From Indioceanicola profundi (GTDB lineage: Bacteria > Pseudomonadota > Alphaproteobacteria > Azospirillales > Azospirillaceae), in contig NZ_CP030126.1 in the NCBI RefSeq assembly GCF_003568845.1, positions 2,135,001 through 2,199,000 on the forward strand: 64,000 nt of DNA, written 5' to 3'. A program made the position numbers and the translations under genes. The notes under the pieces were generated by a model. That model searched no databases. It was given only the letters and a program-made list of their open reading frames with translations, and was not told the origin of the DNA. Of the stretch, positions 8,330 to 16,336 are shown piece after piece; the stretch's first letter is position 1, and every line of letters begins with the position of its first letter.

Positions 8330-9475
8330 GTGGCGGAACCCGCATTCGCGATCCAGCAGGGGAACGGCGGCAACGAACAGGCGCGGGAGGACCGCCAAGT
8401 CCGTGTGGCGCTGATCGGGGTGGGCAACTGCGCCTCCTCCCTGGTCCAGGGCATCCATTATTACCGCGACGCGGGCGACAATGCCCATGTGCCGGGGCTG
8501 ATGAATGTCCGTCTCGGCGGCTATCATGTCGGCGATGTGAAGATCAGCGCCGCCTTCGACATTGCCCATTCCAAGGTTGGGTTGGACGTATCGGAAGCGA
8601 TTCTTGCCGAGCCGAACAATACCAAGCGCTTCGCACAGGTGCCGCATCTGGGCGTTCCGGTTCGCCGCGGCCCCACCCTGGACGGGTTCGGCAAGTATCT
8701 CCGCCAAACCGTGAAGGAAAGCGACGAGCAGCCCTGCAATGTCGCGCAGGTGCTGCAGGATACGGGAACGCAGGTCGTCGTCTCCTACCTGCCAGTCGGC
8801 TCGGAGCGGGCGACGGAGTTCTATGCCGGAGAGGCTTTGAAAGCCGGCTGCGCCTTCGTCAACTGCATTCCCGTCTTCATCGCCAGCCGGCCGGAATGGC
8901 GCCAGCGCTTCGAAGAGGCCGGGCTGCCGCTGATCGGCGACGATATCAAGTCGCAGGTCGGCGCCACCATCGTGCACCGGGTGCTGACCAACCTGTTCCG
9001 GGAACGCGGGGTGCGGCTGGACCACACCTACCAGCTCAATTTCGGCGGCAATTCCGACTTCATGAACATGCTGGAGCGGGAGCGGCTGGAATCCAAGAAG
9101 ATCAGCAAGACCCAGAGCGTCGTCAGCCAGATGGCCGAACCGCTGGCCAATGAGGACGCCCATGTCGGCCCCAGCGACTTCGTCCCCTGGCTGACCGACC
9201 GGAAATGGTGCCATATCCGCATGGAGGGCACCGGCTTCGGCGACGTTCCGCTGAACATCGAGCTGAAGCTGGAAGTCTGGGACAGCCCCAATTCGGCCGG
9301 CGTGGTGATCGACGCCGTGCGCTGCGCCAAGCTTGGGCTGGACCGCGGCTTGGCCGGCCCGCTCGAAGGCCCGTCCAGCTATTTCATGAAATCCCCGCCC
9401 CGCCAGTATACCGACGCGGAGGCCCGTGCCCTGACCCGCGCCTTCATCGACGGTGAGGCCGCGGAGTCCGTCTGA
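8330..9475 (+). CDS. ino1: Inositol-3-phosphate synthase
   Basis: A 381-aa protein of the myo-inositol-1-phosphate synthase family, short prokaryotic type. It converts glucose 6-phosphate to inositol 3-phosphate with NAD+. The NAD-binding motif is [13 protein letters not shown] at about 29-41. Other family segments are [33 protein letters not shown] and [11 protein letters not shown]. Translation starts at a GTG with GGAG 8-9 nt upstream. Its stop overlaps the ATG of the next gene (TGATG), making it the first gene of a nine-gene run. Inositol synthesis placed beside glycosyltransferases and a PIG-L deacetylase suggests that inositol is a building block of the cluster product. Confidence 0.93.
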
Positions 9476-10605
9476 TGAAACTCCTGGTCTTCGGCCTGAC
9501 CATGTCCTCGTCCTGGGGCAACGGGCATGCCACGCTATGGCGCGGCTTGGCTGCCGCCCTGGCCCGACGGGGACACAAGCTGGTTTTCCTGGAGCGGGAT
9601 CAGAGCTGGTACGCGGACAACCGCGACATGACCGAACTGCCCGCCCCCGGTGAGCTGGTGCTCTACCGGGACTGGGAGGAGGCGGTGGCGGTCGCCCGGC
9701 GGCATCTTCCCGACGCCGACGCCGCCATGGTCACCAGCTACTGCCCCGACGGCATCGCCGCCAGCGAGCTTGTGCTGGAGGAGGCGCGCGGCACCCGCAT
9801 CTTCTACGATCTCGACACGCCGGTCACGCTGTCGCGGCTGGAGGCCGGGGAAACGCTGGACTATGTGCCGCCCGGCGGGCTCTCCGGCTTCGATCTGGTG
9901 CTGAGCTACACCGGCGGCCGGGCGCTGGACCTGCTGCGCGACCGGCTCGGGGCCAAGCGCACGGTTCCGCTGTACGGCCATGTCGACCCAGCGGTGCACC
10001 GCCCGACGGAGCCGCAGTCCCATTACCGCTCCGACCTCTCCTATCTCGGCACCTATGCCGAGGACCGGCAGCAGGCGCTGGAGAAGCTGTTCATCGATGC
10101 CGCGCGCCAACTGCCGGACCGGCGCTTCTGCATCGGCGGCGCCCAATATCCGCAGGATTTCCCCTGGACGGACAACATCTTCTTCGTCCGGCACCTGCCG
10201 CCGGCGGAGCATCCGGCCTTCTTCTCCTCCTCCCGGCTGACGCTGAACGTCACCCGCAAGGCCATGGCTGAAATGGGCTGGTGCCCGTCCGGCCGGCTGT
10301 TCGAGGCGGCGGCCTGCGGCTGCCCCCTGATCAGCGACCATTGGGAAGGGCTGGACCATTTCTTCACGCCCGGCGAGGAAATCCTGGTCGCCAAGTCCAC
10401 CGAGGACACCGAAGCCGCCGTGGAGATGGAGGACCAGCCCCTGCGCAGCATCGCGGAGGCGGCGCGGGCGCGGGTCCTGGCCGACCACACCGCCGATGCC
10501 CGCGTCGGCGAGCTGCTGTCCGCCATCGAAGCGGCCCGCCGCCCCCTGCCTCGGCACGCCGATCCGCACGCCGCCATCCGATCCATCTCCGCGACTGGAG
10601 CCTGA
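9475..10605 (+). CDS. CgeB-like glycosyltransferase
   Basis: A 376-aa protein that looks like a GT-B glycosyltransferase of the CgeB/DUF3880 type. The N-terminal half carries a nucleotide-sugar-like Rossmann start ([20 protein letters not shown]). The C-terminal half has the family block LTLNVTRKAMAEMGWCPSGR, then FEAAACGCPLISD and FFTPGEEILVA, where donor sugar is usually bound. It is soluble, without membrane segments. It overlaps the inositol-phosphate synthase stop and is followed 3 nt later by the nucleotidyltransferase. Donor and acceptor are not evident; an inositol-derived acceptor is inference from context. Confidence 0.8.
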   Translation: MKLLVFGLTMSSSWGNGHATLWRGLAAALARRGHKLVFLERDQSWYADNRDMTELPAPGELVLYRDWEEAVAVARRHLPDADAAMVTSYCPDGIAASELVLEEARGTRIFYDLDTPVTLSRLEAGETLDYVPPGGLSGFDLVLSYTGGRALDLLRDRLGAKRTVPLYGHVDPAVHRPTEPQSHYRSDLSYLGTYAEDRQQALEKLFIDAARQLPDRRFCIGGAQYPQDFPWTDNIFFVRHLPPAEHPAFFSSSRLTLNVTRKAMAEMGWCPSGRLFEAAACGCPLISDHWEGLDHFFTPGEEILVAKSTEDTEAAVEMEDQPLRSIAEAARARVLADHTADARVGELLSAIEAARRPLPRHADPHAAIRSISATGA

Positions 10606-10608
10606 CCC

Positions 10609-11406
10609 ATGTGGGGCATCGTACCCGCCGCCGGCAGCGGCACGCGAATCCAGCCACTCGCCTTCTCAAAGGAACTGCTGCCCGTCGGCAGCCGCCTGGA
10701 CGGCGAAACCGAACGGCCGCGCGCCGTCAGCGAATATCTGCTGGAGCGCATGGTGCTGGGCGGGGCGGACAAGGTCTGCTTCGTCATTGGGCCGGCCAAG
10801 TCCGACATCATGGAATATTACGGCGGCGGCTATGGCCAGGCCTCCATCGCCTATGTGGTCCAGCCCAACCCGGGCGGGCTGTGCGACGCGATCTTCCGCG
10901 CGCTGCCCCTGATCCCCCCGGATGAGCCGGTGATCATCGGGCTGCCGGACACGGTCTGGTTTCCGGACGACGCGCTGAAGCACCTGCCGAACGACAAGCT
11001 GTCCTTCCTGCTGTTCCCGGTGGAACGGCCGGAGCTGTTCGACGCCGTCATCACGGACGAGACCGGGCGCGTGCAGGAGATCCAGGTCAAGCAAGCCGGC
11101 GCTGCGTCCCGCTGGGTCTGGGGCGCCTTCAAGATGCCGGGCCACATCCTGGCCGAGCTGCACGATCTGTGGCGGGAGCGGGAGCGGCAGGACGAGTACA
11201 TGGGCACGCTGGTCAACGCCTGGATTGCGCGCGGCGGCCACGCCGTCGGTATCCGGGCGGGGGAAGCCTATGTGGATGTCGGCACGGTGCACGGATACCG
11301 CGCCGCCATCGGGCTGCTGAGCGGTCAGGTCGATCAGGGCGGCGGGCTGACTCAGGCTGCCAAGGAACTTCGACGCACGGATGCGACCGTTTCCAGGGGG
11401 ACATGA
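10609..11406 (+). CDS. Sugar-phosphate nucleotidyltransferase
   Basis: A 265-aa protein of the NTP_transferase (RmlA/GalU-like) superfamily. The signature GSGTR is at residues 9-13 in VPAAGSGTRIQPLAFSKELL. The Lys after FS is the usual catalytic Lys, and LPDT near residue 108 supplies a metal-binding Asp. Such enzymes join a sugar 1-phosphate to NTP to make an activated donor. It is shorter than GalU or RmlA (about 290). It sits between two transferase genes with only a few bases on each side, and its stop overlaps the start of the methyltransferase. It probably supplies the NDP-sugar used in this cluster. Confidence 0.85.
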   Translation: MWGIVPAAGSGTRIQPLAFSKELLPVGSRLDGETERPRAVSEYLLERMVLGGADKVCFVIGPAKSDIMEYYGGGYGQASIAYVVQPNPGGLCDAIFRALPLIPPDEPVIIGLPDTVWFPDDALKHLPNDKLSFLLFPVERPELFDAVITDETGRVQEIQVKQAGAASRWVWGAFKMPGHILAELHDLWRERERQDEYMGTLVNAWIARGGHAVGIRAGEAYVDVGTVHGYRAAIGLLSGQVDQGGGLTQAAKELRRTDATVSRGT

Positions 11407-12188
11407 TGCACATGACGCAGTTGGGCGGGGTCAGCCCCTTGGACCGGGAGGAGCTTGAGCGGCGCATTGCCGAACTCGCCCCCTGGTTCCACAATCTGGA
11501 CTTGAACGGGGTACGCACCGCCCCCGACCATTTCCTGCACGACTATCCCGCCACCAAATGGCAGCGCTTCGCCCATGCGGTCCCGCAGAATCTGACGGGC
11601 AAGACCGTGCTGGATATCGGCTGCAACGCCGGTTTTTATTCCATGGAGATGAAGCGCCGCGGGGCGGAGAGGGTCGTGGCGGTCGACAGCGACCCGCATT
11701 ATCTGGCGCAGGCCCGCTTCGCGGCGGAGGTCAACGGGCTGGATATCGAGTTTCGCGAGCTCTCGGTCTATGACGTCGGCAAGCTTGGCGAGAAGTTCGA
11801 CCTCGTCCTGTTCCTGGGCGTTCTCTATCATCTGCGCCATCCCCTGCTGGCGCTGGACCTGATCCGTGAGCATGTCGCCGGCGATCTGCTGGTATTCCAG
11901 TCCATGCAGCGCGGGGCCAAGGACAGCAAGGAGTGGGCGCAGGACTACGACTTCTGGGTCAAGGATCAGTTCGACGATCCGGCTTGGCCCAAGATGCATT
12001 TCGTCGAACATTACTATTCCGGGGACTGGACCAATTGGTGGGTTCCCAACAATGCGGCGGCTGAGGCCATGCTGCGCAGTGCCGGTTTCGAGATCATCGA
12101 TCATCCGGAGCAGGAGGTCTTTGTCTGCCGGGCCACCAAACCGCCCTACGGCCTTGGCGCTGTCTATCCGGCCCAAGGGCCGGCGTAA
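11406..12188 (+). CDS. Class I SAM-dependent methyltransferase (CmoB/DUF1698-like)
   Basis: A 260-aa protein with motif I VLDIGCNAGFYSMEMKRRGA at about 68-87, an acidic post-I residue (AVDSD), and motif LVLFLGVLYHLRHPLLALD, a pattern seen in CmoB/DUF1698-type methyltransferases. From memory, similar proteins are recognised as a separate family in glycosyltransferase clusters. Three Met codons are close together (11403, 11406, 11412). The AGGGGG at 11395-11400 fits best with 11406 or 11412. The ATG at 11403 overlaps the previous stop but is too close to the ribosome site. The likely role is O- or C-methylation of the cluster product; the substrate is unknown. Confidence 0.85.
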   Translation: MHMTQLGGVSPLDREELERRIAELAPWFHNLDLNGVRTAPDHFLHDYPATKWQRFAHAVPQNLTGKTVLDIGCNAGFYSMEMKRRGAERVVAVDSDPHYLAQARFAAEVNGLDIEFRELSVYDVGKLGEKFDLVLFLGVLYHLRHPLLALDLIREHVAGDLLVFQSMQRGAKDSKEWAQDYDFWVKDQFDDPAWPKMHFVEHYYSGDWTNWWVPNNAAAEAMLRSAGFEIIDHPEQEVFVCRATKPPYGLGAVYPAQGPA

Positions 12189-12227
12189 GCCGGTGAGCGC
12201 CAAAAGAACGTTGAATGAGGGAGCACC

Positions 12228-13178
12228 ATGATTGAAGCGGTGATGATCTGGAACGAGCCGAACAACAAGTCCCATTGGGACATCGAGCTCGACAGCGACT
12301 GGGCGATGTTCGCCGAGACCGCGATCGCCGCCGGCAAGGCCGTGAAGTCCGTAGCGCCGAACCTGCCCCGCGTGCTGGGCGGCATGTCCCCGATCGACGC
12401 CAATTTCGTCCGCAACCTGCAGGGCCGGGGCGTGCTGGACCATGTGGACGCCGTGGCGGTGCATGGTTTCCCGCTGGACTGGAATCACTGGCAGATCCAG
12501 GAATGGCCGAACCGTATCCAGGAGATCCGCGACGTCACCAGTCTGCCGATCTGGGTGTCGGAAGTCGGTATCTCCACCTTCGGGGCGGAGGAGGTGCAGG
12601 AGTTCGGGCTGCACAAGACGGCGGAGCTGCTGATCGGGCAGGTGCCGCGCATCCACTGGTACAGCCTGTTCGACCTGCCCAAGGCATGGCCCGCCACCAC
12701 CCGCCACCGCGAGGCGGAGGGGTCCAGCTACTACCGTCACTTCTATATGGGCCTCTTCCGTGAGGACGGCACGCCGAAGATCGCCGCCAAGCACTTCAGC
12801 CAGTATGCACCGGAGATGGGTGTCTGCCAGTGGTTCCATTTCGAGGACCACCGGCTGGACGAAGCGGTGAAGCGGATGAAGGAGCTGGGCATCACCTATC
12901 TGCGCACCGGCCTGTCCTGGGCGGACTATTACCGGCCGGGTGCGCTGGACTGGTTCGACCGGCAGATGGATGCGCTGAAGGACTTCGACGTGACCGTCAC
13001 CTATTGCTTCACGCCGGAGCACAAGGGCATCGATCCGCATTACACCAGCCCGCCCAAGGACCCGGAGGAGTTCGCCGCCTTTTGTGCGGAGATGACCGAG
13101 CGCTATGCCAGCCACATCAAGCCGGAGTTCCAGGGAGGGGTGGCGAGCCGGTCCCGCCTCGCGCCCACGCCTGCGTGA
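12228..13178 (+). CDS. Glycoside hydrolase, TIM barrel, circularly permuted
   Basis: A 316-aa protein that resembles a clan GH-A hydrolase (beta-xylosidase/GH39-like). The protein begins with what is normally the middle of the barrel: MIEAVMIWNEPNN places the putative acid/base E10 in WNEPN, and WVSEVGISTFG places the nucleophile E112. What is normally the N-terminal third is found at the C terminus (about 205-297: ITYLRTGLSWADYYRPGALD, then VTVTYCFTPEHKG, then PPKDPEEFAAFC). The tail then leads naturally back into residue 1, so the order of strands is rotated. It has no signal peptide, so it is cytoplasmic, which is odd for a degradative hydrolase and suggests a biosynthetic or trimming role. 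Its stop overlaps the GTG of the deacetylase gene. Confidence 0.75.
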   Translation: MIEAVMIWNEPNNKSHWDIELDSDWAMFAETAIAAGKAVKSVAPNLPRVLGGMSPIDANFVRNLQGRGVLDHVDAVAVHGFPLDWNHWQIQEWPNRIQEIRDVTSLPIWVSEVGISTFGAEEVQEFGLHKTAELLIGQVPRIHWYSLFDLPKAWPATTRHREAEGSSYYRHFYMGLFREDGTPKIAAKHFSQYAPEMGVCQWFHFEDHRLDEAVKRMKELGITYLRTGLSWADYYRPGALDWFDRQMDALKDFDVTVTYCFTPEHKGIDPHYTSPPKDPEEFAAFCAEMTERYASHIKPEFQGGVASRSRLAPTPA

Positions 13179-14047
13179 ACCCCGCCGCTACTCCGCGCAA
13201 TGCCGCCCTGGCCCTCCGTTTTCTGAAGGAGTTGGGGCCGGGCGGCCCGCCAGTGCTGGATGCCCGCCGCGTCGCCATCGTCGCTGCCCATCCGGACGAT
13301 GAGACGGTCGGGCTGGGCGGTCAGCTCAACCGCCTCTCCGGCGTGCGGATCATCCATGTTACCGACGGCGCGCCGGCGGACCTGATGGACGCCCGGTCCC
13401 ATGGCTGTGACACGCGGGAGGAATATGCCGCCCTGCGCCAGGAAGAGCTGGAGGGCGCCATGGCGCTTGCGGGCATCCCGCCCGCGCGTCTGATCCCACT
13501 GGGCGTCGCCGACCAGGAGGCGAGCTTCGTCATGGCCGGGCTGGCCCAGCGCTTGGCCGACCTGATCGATGGCGGCGACGTGGGCTGCATCATCACCCAC
13601 CCTTATGAGGGCGGGCACCCGGACCACGATGCCGCCTGCTTCGCGACCCACGCGGCGGCGGAGCTGTTGCGGCAACGCGGACTGTCGGTTCCAGCATTGC
13701 TGGAGATGACCAGCTATCACGCCGCCCCAGGCGGCGAAGGGCTGGAGACTGGACGTTTCCTACCTACCCCGGGTGCCGGTCCGCAGGCGGTTTTGCCGCT
13801 GGATACGGATGGACGGGCGCAGAAGCGGCGGCTGTTCGCCGCCTTCGCCAGCCAGAGCGCCGTACTGAACCAGTTCACCACGGCGGATGAACGGCTGCGT
13901 GCCGCCCCGCGCTACGACTTCCTGGAGCCGCCCCATCCCGGCCGGCTCTGGTACGAGAACTTCCCCTGGGGCTACGATGGCCGGACTTGGCGGGACAGGG
14001 CGGCCGAAGCCGTCGCCCAACTGGAACTGGAAGCGCCGCCATGGTGA
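13175..14047 (+). CDS. PIG-L family N-acetylglucosamine deacetylase-like protein
   Basis: A 290-aa zinc-dependent deacetylase of the PIG-L/MshB/BshB superfamily. The metal motif AHPDDE is at about 38-43, and HPYEGGHPDHDAA supplies the second His cluster near 143. Family members remove acetyl groups from GlcNAc linked to inositol (PIG-L, MshB) or malate (BshB). The GTG at 13175 overlaps the stop of the hydrolase gene (GTGA); it is the only plausible start before the conserved core, though no strong ribosome site precedes it. Given inositol-phosphate synthase and GT4 genes in the same run, an inositol-linked N-acetylated sugar is the best guess for the substrate. Confidence 0.87.
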   Translation: MNPAATPRNAALALRFLKELGPGGPPVLDARRVAIVAAHPDDETVGLGGQLNRLSGVRIIHVTDGAPADLMDARSHGCDTREEYAALRQEELEGAMALAGIPPARLIPLGVADQEASFVMAGLAQRLADLIDGGDVGCIITHPYEGGHPDHDAACFATHAAAELLRQRGLSVPALLEMTSYHAAPGGEGLETGRFLPTPGAGPQAVLPLDTDGRAQKRRLFAAFASQSAVLNQFTTADERLRAAPRYDFLEPPHPGRLWYENFPWGYDGRTWRDRAAEAVAQLELEAPPW

Positions 14048-14282: not shown

Positions 14283-15359
14283 ATGACCAACCGCCCCCTC
14301 ACAATCCTCCAGGTCGCCTACCCCCTCGCCCCCGTCGGGCCGGACACGGTGGGCGGGGCGGAGCAGATCCTGTACTGGCTGGACCGCGGGCTGGTTGAAC
14401 GCGGACACCGCTCGCTGGTGGTCGCGGCGGAGGGATCGCGGCCGGCGGGGGAGCTGCTGCCCGTTCCCGCGCATGGCGGCACGCTGGACGACGCCGTCAA
14501 GGCCGAGGCACAGGCCGCGCATCGGAAGGCCATCCTGCGGGCGCTGGACCGGCATCCGGTGGATCTGGTGCATCTGCACGGGATCGACGCACTGGATTAC
14601 CTGCCCCCGCCGGGCGTGCCAGTGGTGATCACGCTCCACCTGCCGCCGGACTGGTATCCGCCGGGCATCTGGAATCTGGACAGGCCCGGCACATGGCTGG
14701 TGCCGGTGTCCGAAAGCCAGCGCAGACAATGCCCGGACAGCCCTTCCCTGCTGCCGCCGGTGCCGAACGGCGTGCCGGTGGACGATCTCGCCTGGACTGG
14801 ACGCAAGGCGGGCTTCACGGCGGCGCTGGGGCGCATCTGCCCGGAAAAGGGCTTCGAACATGCCATCGAGGCCGCCAAGCGGGCCGATGTTCCGATGATC
14901 CTGGCGGGCCGGGTCTATCCCTATGAATGGCACCAGCAGTATTTCAGCACCGTGCTCTCTCCGGCGCTTGACCGGCGGCGGCGCTATGCCGGGCCGCTGG
15001 GATTCCGCGCCAAGCGCCGGCTGATGGGGATGGCCGCCGCCGTGCTGGTGCCCAGCCTGTGCGAGGAGACCAGCAGCCTGGTCGCTATGGAGGCGCTGGC
15101 CTGCGGCACCCCCGTCATCGCTTTCCCCAACGGTGCCCTGCCGGAGGTGGTGGAGGATGGCGTCACCGGCTGGCTGGTTCCCAATGCCAAGGCCATGGCC
15201 GATGCCATCCACCGGGCCGGCCGCATCGATCCGGAGGCCTGCCGCGCCGGCGCCCGCGCCCGCTTCTCCCCCGGCGCCATGGTGGACGGCTATCTGGGCG
15301 CCTACGCCACCGCGCTGCGCGGCTCTAACCTGGCCGGAGCGTCCCAGGGGGCGGCATGA
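14283..15359 (+). CDS. Glycosyltransferase family 4 (MshA/BshA-like fold)
   Basis: A 358-aa GT-B enzyme. The N-terminal acceptor-side domain has VGGAEQILYWLDRGLVERGH. The C-terminal donor domain has GRICPEKGFEHAIEAAKR and the E-x7-E type motif within CEETSSLVAMEALACG, followed by TPVIAFPNGALPEVV, typical of retaining GT4 enzymes. The start is taken at ATG 14283 with GGAG 7 nt upstream; a GTG at 14277 is possible. It is separated from the deacetylase by 235 nt that include a palindromic repeat, so a second promoter is possible. The stop overlaps the acyltransferase start (ATGA). GT4 enzymes make the GlcNAc-inositol or GlcNAc-malate links in mycothiol and bacillithiol; the same step here is inference. 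Confidence 0.88.
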   Translation: MTNRPLTILQVAYPLAPVGPDTVGGAEQILYWLDRGLVERGHRSLVVAAEGSRPAGELLPVPAHGGTLDDAVKAEAQAAHRKAILRALDRHPVDLVHLHGIDALDYLPPPGVPVVITLHLPPDWYPPGIWNLDRPGTWLVPVSESQRRQCPDSPSLLPPVPNGVPVDDLAWTGRKAGFTAALGRICPEKGFEHAIEAAKRADVPMILAGRVYPYEWHQQYFSTVLSPALDRRRRYAGPLGFRAKRRLMGMAAAVLVPSLCEETSSLVAMEALACGTPVIAFPNGALPEVVEDGVTGWLVPNAKAMADAIHRAGRIDPEACRAGARARFSPGAMVDGYLGAYATALRGSNLAGASQGAA

Positions 15360-16336
15360 GCGACGTGCCGAGCCTGGAACTGCATGCCGGGGTGGCCGGC
15401 CTGCGCGGGTTGGAGCGGGAATGGTGGGAGCTGTGGCGGCAGGACGATCAGGCCACCGCCTTCCAGTCCCCTGCCTGGCTGATCCCCTGGGCCGAGGCAT
15501 TCCAGCCGGATGCCGCCTTCGCGGCCTGCCTGCGCCGCGAAGGGGCCGTCGCCGCCATCCTGCCGATGTTCGTGTTCGAGGAGGACGGGCCACGCCGGCT
15601 GCTGCCGCTGGGCGCCGGCACCACGGACTGGCTTGGTCCCGTCTGCCGGCCCGATGCCCGGCCCATAGACCTCGCCACGCTGCTGGCCGAGGTGGCGCTG
15701 GACAGGGGCGTGGAGCAAGCGGACCTGCCCCAGCTTTCCCCCGGCAGCCTGCTTGCCCGGGCCGTGGCCCCGCCGGGCTGGCGGGCGGAGCGGGCGGCCG
15801 GCACGCCCAGCCCGGCGGTGGACCTGCCGGCGGATCTGCCCAAATCCCTGCGCCAGAACCTCCGCACCGCCCGCAACCGGCTGGAGCGCACCGGCCGGGT
15901 GGAGATCGCGCAGGCCGGCGGCGAGAGCCTGACGGCGGCCATCGAGCGGCTGTTCGACCTGCATGCCGCCCGGTGGGACGGGGATGGCGGCGGCGTCCTG
16001 GCCGATCCCGCCGTGCGCCGGTTCCACCAACTGGCGGCCGGCGAGCTGGAGCGGGCCGGGCTGCTACGCCTCTACACGCTGGCGCTGGACGGGAACGTGA
16101 TCGCGGCCCTGCATGGGCTCAGGGCCAAGGGCCGCTTCCATTACTATATCGGAGGCTACGACCCGGCGCATGAGCATGGCAGCCCCGGCAACCTGTTGAT
16201 CGCCCACGCGCTGGAGCAGGCCACGGCCGACGGATGCCGCCTGTTCGACTTCCTGCGCGGGCAGGAGGATTACAAATACCGCTGGGGCGCCACGGACCGG
16301 GAAAGCGTCAGCGTCACCATGCGGGCCGTAGGTTGA
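15356..16336 (+). CDS. CelD/BcsL-type GNAT acyltransferase (Acetyltransf_6, FemAB-like)
   Basis: A 326-aa protein of the double-GNAT Acetyltransf_6 family related to FemAB aminoacyl transferases. The N-terminal part has FQSPAWLIPWAEAF. Near residue 160 is SLRQNLRTARNRLER. The C-terminal part has HYYIGGYDPAHEHGSPG, then LFDFLRGQEDYKYRWGA, which is diagnostic. These proteins are common in exopolysaccharide clusters. It overlaps the GT4 stop. Coming after a deacetylase that frees an amine, it could add an acyl or aminoacyl group to that amine; this is inference only. Confidence 0.85.
   Translation: MSDVPSLELHAGVAGLRGLEREWWELWRQDDQATAFQSPAWLIPWAEAFQPDAAFAACLRREGAVAAILPMFVFEEDGPRRLLPLGAGTTDWLGPVCRPDARPIDLATLLAEVALDRGVEQADLPQLSPGSLLARAVAPPGWRAERAAGTPSPAVDLPADLPKSLRQNLRTARNRLERTGRVEIAQAGGESLTAAIERLFDLHAARWDGDGGGVLADPAVRRFHQLAAGELERAGLLRLYTLALDGNVIAALHGLRAKGRFHYYIGGYDPAHEHGSPGNLLIAHALEQATADGCRLFDFLRGQEDYKYRWGATDRESVSVTMRAVG

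Follow-up and report, generated by a model that had tools for sequence, protein, structure and literature searches.

An open reading frame on the plus strand of the 64,000-nucleotide stretch of Indioceanicola profundi DNA analysed here (the window; contig NZ_CP030126.1) raises the question of whether a TIM-barrel glycoside hydrolase encoded in a biosynthetic cluster has been circularly permuted, and which role such an enzyme would play there. A first-pass annotation had proposed, from the sequence, that the protein begins in the normal strand 4 region and presents the segment that usually opens the barrel late in the chain. The coordinates, reading frame and motifs given there (WNEPNN with E10, WVSEVG with E112) are correct, and the permutation itself is borne out by sequence blocks, a rotation scan, profile searches and the strand order of an AlphaFold2 model. 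On the grounds of sequence and predicted structure, the reading frame is thus confirmed as encoding a complete eight-stranded clan GH-A barrel in circularly permuted form (Table 1).

The product comprises 316 residues and begins with MIEAVMIWNEPNN. The barrel-opening segment, ITYLRTGLSWAD, indeed starts only at about residue 222, within the b1-b3 portion at residues 198-295. Since an in-frame TGA is located at 12216-12218 and the upstream methyltransferase gene ends at 12188, there is no room for an N-terminal extension with b1-b3, and a hidden extension of this kind in the window is ruled out by the TGA. No signal peptide is visible on reading of the glycosidase sequence, and the model places residues 2-7 in a barrel strand.

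Table 1. Features of the glycosidase gene and its neighbours, in positions of the window
Feature	Coordinates	Strand	Basis
Inositol-3-phosphate synthase-like	8330..9475	+	PF01658; TIGR03450-like, below cut-off
Glycosyltransferase	9475..10605	+	PF13524
Sugar-phosphate nucleotidyltransferase-like	10609..11406	+	PF00483
TIGR04290 family methyltransferase	11403..12188	+	390.7 bits, cut-off 300
In-frame TGA, four codons 5' of start	12216..12218	+	sequence
GGGAG, possible ribosome-binding site, 4 bases 5' of ATG	12219..12223	+	by eye, inference
Circularly permuted clan GH-A glycosidase, 316 aa plus stop	12228..13178	+	sequence, AlphaFold2 model, rotation scan
Residues 1-190, canonical strands b4-b8 and helices	12228..12797	+	model strands 2-7, 48-53, 75-80, 108-113, 142-145
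E10 of WNEPNN, putative acid/base, invariant 81/81	12255..12257	+	alignment; role inferred from clan GH-A
E112 of WVSEVG, putative nucleophile, invariant 81/81	12561..12563	+	alignment; role inferred from clan GH-A
Residues 191-197, new linker between helix 8 (old C-terminal end) and b1 (old N-terminal end)	12798..12818	+	
Residues 198-295, canonical b1-b3 and helix 279-294, end ERYAS	12819..13112	+	model strands 198-200, 224-230, 254-260
Residues 296-316, variable, low-confidence tail, nearly missing from shortest homologues	13113..13175	+	
PIG-L deacetylase, GTG start	13175..14047	+	domain search
GT4-type glycosyltransferase	14283..15359	+	domain search
GNAT-fold acyltransferase	15356..16336	+	PF13480

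In a phmmer search against solved structures, residues 200-295 of the query correspond to residues 25-130 of PslG and residues 3-125 to residues 132-264, i.e. in swapped order, and a search with the family profile reproduces the swapped PslG blocks (E 1e-6 for PslG). After rotation, the glycosidase matches PslG in a single stretch with 39.1 bits, compared with 26.6 bits in the native order, and also gives weak matches to GH39 beta-xylosidases (E about 0.2). The same exchange is seen against seven sister domains of normal order: the native profile yields two swapped blocks in all seven (198-293 against 2-99 and about 3-190 against 104-289), while the rotated profile yields one block of about 2-288 and scores higher than the native one in each of them. 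When all 295 rotations were scanned, the best start fell at residue 189-193 for each of the seven sister domains, with scores of 367-434 for the best rotation versus 242-303 for the native sequence; 200 shuffles compared with one of the seven reached a maximum of 54, and a control pair of normal order scored best unrotated. Moreover, the rotated form exceeds the native form in 80 of 80 family members in a comparison with L100. The earlier impression that the C terminus runs on into the N terminus holds as well, the join ERYAS-MIEAV being aligned without a gap in 7/7 sister domains at 33.5-35.6% identity. As in a circular permutant, the blocks are hence exchanged with respect to the relatives and merge after rotation, the native termini are adjacent in the relatives, and the domain is complete. 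Among Pfam models, PF11790 (Glyco_hydro_cc), which is without permutation, alone exceeds its cut-off for the glycosidase (27.8 bits, cut-off 21); it covers only a part of the window enzyme (positions 66-208 of 237, residues 2-148 in native order), and its score after rotation is 32.2 bits. An NCBIfam search of the glycosidase assigned no family.

AlphaFold2, run on 81 aligned sequences, predicts a (b/a)8 barrel with helices between the eight strands listed in Table 1 (pLDDT 85.8, pTM 0.85), whereas a single-sequence model (pLDDT 49.3) was discarded. The predicted strand order is b4-b8 followed by b1-b3 and thus departs from the canonical b1-b8 order, which is usual in clan GH-A and lies outside its mechanism. 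In the model, N9-E10 are situated just behind strand 2-7 and E112 within strand 108-113, which corresponds to the b4 and b7 glutamates of the clan with their putative roles. Upon structural re-alignment, PslG is aligned over 185 residues at 2.6 A with 24% identity (Z 12.2). No other of the 50 rows has so low an rmsd or so high an identity, the remaining 49 aligning over 203-250 residues at 3.3-4.6 A. A short, close and high-identity match is what would be expected of a permuted member in an order-dependent alignment. Since PslG ranked only 20th, and since the GH5 enzyme BlMan5B (6mp7), a clan GH-A member, aligned over 250 residues at 4.0 A in chain order, structural alignment is treated as supporting evidence only; Foldseek in chain order, with other TIM barrels at high rmsd as its top rows, is uninformative alone. 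Of the families GH39, GH42 and GH5, which had been named for comparison, it is GH39 to which the solved protein nearest in sequence, PslG, belongs.

A scan of a genome collection returned at least 591 related stretches, and the best 80 of these, which were kept for examination, all match from query residue 1. The permuted order is thus shared by these 80 homologues, a point that the first-pass annotation had raised. Their start codons are ATG in 70 cases and GTG in 10, with the one nearest query residue 1 taken where several were possible, and the in-frame stop 5' of the start lies within 31 codons in 32 loci, at 32-95 codons in 20 and farther away in 28. In none of the 80 loci was a b1-b3-like match found within 1500 bases 5' of the homologue, which speaks against an N-terminal extension in the family, and an assembly artefact is contradicted by the agreement of the 80 loci. 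WNEPNN and the nucleophile motif are each present in 80/80 homologues, and the alignment shows a mean column identity of 76% with 108 invariant columns. The shortest homologues comprise 293-296 residues and stop at RYA or a few residues off, so that the tail of the window protein is dispensable. The 80 homologues cover Myxococcus, Pyxidicoccus, Thermoanaerobaculum and Chthoniobacterales in addition to many Alphaproteobacteria. In annotated plasmid records, members of the family are labelled beta-xylosidase or hypothetical protein and often adjoin a TIGR04290 methyltransferase.

Relatives of normal order, which the first-pass annotation had counted as evidence against a permutation, were indeed found, but they constitute a separate sister family and serve to demonstrate the permutation. 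In these proteins, detected in other genomes by profile searches (P0002, P0003), the same barrel in normal order, with both catalytic motifs in common with the permuted enzyme, is fused to an SDR (SDR2), which among solved structures is most similar in sequence to CDP-tyvelose 2-epimerase. The two fusion loci examined in full, L107 and L108, carry SDR1, radical-SAM and glycosyltransferase genes alongside, and L108 additionally contains TIGR04290-type methyltransferase and decarboxylase-like (UXS) genes at 51-56% identity. Compared with the genes round the permuted enzyme in three annotated records, the SDR1, SDR2, radical-SAM and glycosyltransferase genes of L107 and L108 show 36-69% identity; in those three records, SDR2 stands alone. 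In a tree of rotated sequences, the permuted clade (95/96) is separate from the fused clade (98/99), with 22 of the 80 permuted homologues and the window as its permuted rows, very long outgroup branches and a risk of long-branch meeting among the decayed rows. Because the normal order is found in PslG and in every other relative seen, the permutation represents the derived state, and the permuted form is most simply attributed to one event. Neither Pfam glycosidase models (searched with residues 1-310 of P0002 and P0003) nor PDB chains (searched by sequence with P0003) matched the sister barrel, which has therefore likely been overlooked by annotation. A distant GH-A-like match of 23-25% identity was also noticed in a 1380-aa protein of genome G215 (L109 8055-12197).

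The distribution of the two forms was followed at 145 SDR2 loci, with 1250 bases upstream examined for the fused barrel. A survey of the order (82 genomes, SDR2 at E 1e-75) found the permuted enzyme in 37 genomes, all 37 of which carry SDR2. The barrel before SDR2 is undetectable in 31 of these and decayed in six (G202, G206, G215, G714, G715, G716); all six decayed copies have lost the NEP motif and five the nucleophile, which is kept in G714. In G221 and G698, which lack the permuted enzyme, the fused barrel is intact. The remaining 7 of the 46 SDR2-bearing genomes of the order (G658, G661, G662, G671, G674, G675, G690; L264-L270) have neither GH form, which excludes a universal link between SDR2 and a GH. 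Their SDR2-like genes, at 43-51% identity, possibly belong to a paralogous cluster, and the copy in G674 contains four internal stops.

In a sample of the class (385 genomes), SDR2 occurs in 15 genomes, comprising eight with the permuted enzyme, six with an intact fused barrel only and G281, in which the locus is cut at the contig start. Among the eight, the fused barrel is missing in six, decayed in G206 and unreadable in G408, where the nucleophile is kept and the rest is lost at the contig end. Fisher's test gives p 0.0006 here and 0.005-0.01 when less favourable choices are made, one of the tables leaving out G281 and G408. The genomes of the 80 homologues give a similar account: SDR2 is present in 76, with the barrel undetectable in 71, decayed in four and intact in one. 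The lesions of the four are a change of the acid/base E to K in G617, of the nucleophile E to A in G612 and G614, and loss of both in G597. The intact copy is that of G598, which also has the permuted enzyme (the L028 record is labelled a MAG); hence strict mutual exclusion does not apply, as G598 and possibly G408 hold both forms. Four of the 80 (L005, L024, L040 from Rhodoplanes, L046) carry the permuted enzyme without SDR2 at E 1e-70. Where a fused barrel occurs without the permuted enzyme, both glutamates are kept in 8/8 genomes. If readable genomes are counted once each, G597 and G215 being treated as one genome on account of equal coordinates and sizes, and likewise G579 and G208, the ratio of decayed to intact fused barrels is 9:1 with the permuted enzyme and 0:8 without it (Fisher p 0.0004). 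Counted by lineage, in a rough grouping by genus and phylum, the ratios are 4:1 versus 0:6 (p 0.015, or 0.06 with G408 counted as intact), the independent lineages being few because several decayed cases come from one genus or family. The apparent takeover, as read from these sequences, is thus a strong pattern that rests on few independent lineages.

As for the genomic surroundings, the GTG start of the PIG-L deacetylase gene overlaps the glycosidase stop (GTGA at 13175-13178), an arrangement that suggests translational coupling. By tblastn across the 80 loci, the upstream neighbours recur as the synthase-like gene in 69, the PF13524 glycosyltransferase in 69, the nucleotidyltransferase in 57 and the TIGR04290 methyltransferase in 73, and the downstream ones as PIG-L in 19, the GT4-type glycosyltransferase in 18 and the GNAT protein in 13, these counts including some weak paralogues (glycosyltransferase matches at 26-28%). 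A miss does not amount to absence, since the flanks in these loci are 6 kb long at most. Further gene types come from annotated regions of Sinorhizobium meliloti pSymB, Bradyrhizobium and Roseomonas, namely a histidine phosphatase, two SDRs, a TIGR04295 B12 radical-SAM protein, additional glycosyltransferases, a UDP-glucuronate decarboxylase family protein and dehydrogenases, never all together in any one of the three; the best-scoring models for the dehydrogenases are inositol or inosose dehydrogenases, with scores that fall far short of the cut-off. In the genome of the window itself, SDR1, SDR2 and four glycosyltransferases are located about 265 kb away (L129, G000:C1:1868000-1887999), and a TIGR04295-like gene is absent there between SDR2 and the following glycosyltransferase. 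A literature search on TIGR04290, TIGR04295 and the cluster found no description of a product; the cluster probably makes a glycan containing inositol, a pentose or a methylated sugar.

Taken as a whole, a cytoplasmic retaining beta-glycosidase that arose by a single permutation and took over the step of a fused domain, with subsequent decay or loss of the fused barrel, is the reading that we consider likely. The chain opens directly ahead of strand 4, with nine residues before E10, and closes after helix 3; by analogy with clan GH-A, the enzyme would act by retaining double displacement, E10 serving as acid/base and E112 as nucleophile. The neighbouring sugar-nucleotide and inositol genes and the apparent lack of a signal peptide suggest that the step is cytoplasmic, and trimming, editing or transglycosylating a soluble intermediate would be the most likely job. 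The permuted form most likely originated once, presumably by duplication of a fused-type gene and the opening of new ends between helix 3 and strand 4; no tandem intermediate turned up in searches that were aimed at other questions. The permuted enzyme would then have assumed the catalytic step, and the fused barrel would afterwards have decayed or been lost. The more specific proposal, that a permuted duplicate freed from the fusion took over the biosynthetic glycosidase step while the fused original lost its catalytic residues and then vanished, strikes us as evenly balanced.

Alternatively, the permuted and the fused form might serve different functions, their near-exclusion reflecting lineage history and separate losses. 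This account, rather unlikely in our judgement, would fit the two separate clades at ~34% identity, the two intact forms in G598 and perhaps in G408, the seven SDR2 genomes without either form and a p by lineage of only 0.015-0.06; it is at odds with the varied lesions (E to K, E to A, loss of NEP with deletions), which occur only alongside the permuted enzyme and in 0/8 genomes without it. A role of the permuted barrel as a mere pseudoenzyme or binding protein is improbable: the family owes its name to homology alone, but both motifs are retained in every homologue, and the high column identity contrasts with the decaying fused barrels. Finally, an ordinary barrel with misnumbered strands, or a truncated or misassembled gene, is scarcely credible, for although barrel pseudo-symmetry lets other TIM barrels such as 6mp7 align almost whole in chain order and the upstream frame is open for at least 96 codons in 28/80 loci, the blocks swapped against PslG and seven sisters, the rotation scan and the profiles already refute it, the PslG row combines the lowest rmsd with the highest identity, no b1-b3-like match is found within 1500 bases upstream in the 80 loci, and the first residue is identical in 80/80.

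The preferred reading of a permuted enzyme that succeeded a fused barrel can be set against known systems. PslG of Pseudomonas aeruginosa (GH39; PDB 4zn2, 5bx9), the best solved relative by sequence, has the NEP and nucleophile motifs and the clan GH-A barrel in common with the window enzyme but displays the normal strand order. The SDR-fused sister shares the cluster type and motifs and differs by its canonical order and its decay in 9/10 readable genomes with both forms. GH39 beta-xylosidases (1px8, 4ekj), matched weakly as described, have the normal strand order, and beta-xylosidase is an annotation name only. Catalytic barrels are seldom circularly permuted in nature; GH70 enzymes are permuted relative to GH13, with a clan and a cut point different from those of the window enzyme. 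GH70 glucansucrases are reported to show a natural circular permutation of the catalytic barrel (PMC6274110), MalS of GH13_19 has likewise been reported to contain permuted domains (PMC10223318), a GH3 glycosidase with a permuted domain is cited in PMC6887791, and GH39 beta-xylosidases bear extra accessory domains (PMC6887791). PslG is described in PMC10485009 as encoded in a polysaccharide operon, which makes it an earlier example of a glycosidase in such a setting, and as periplasmic with an N-terminal transmembrane segment, whereas no such segment is seen in the window enzyme. Among the papers listed in a literature search that reached few subscription journals, no permuted clan GH-A enzyme was found.

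The apparent replacement of a fused domain goes beyond what a single sequence could reveal. Because a permuted enzyme, a normally ordered sister and decayed intermediates occur in like clusters, the effects of permutation on catalysis, folding and partner association become testable. If the proposed history is true, a topological variant took over an active site, and several stages of this process would be preserved in living genomes.
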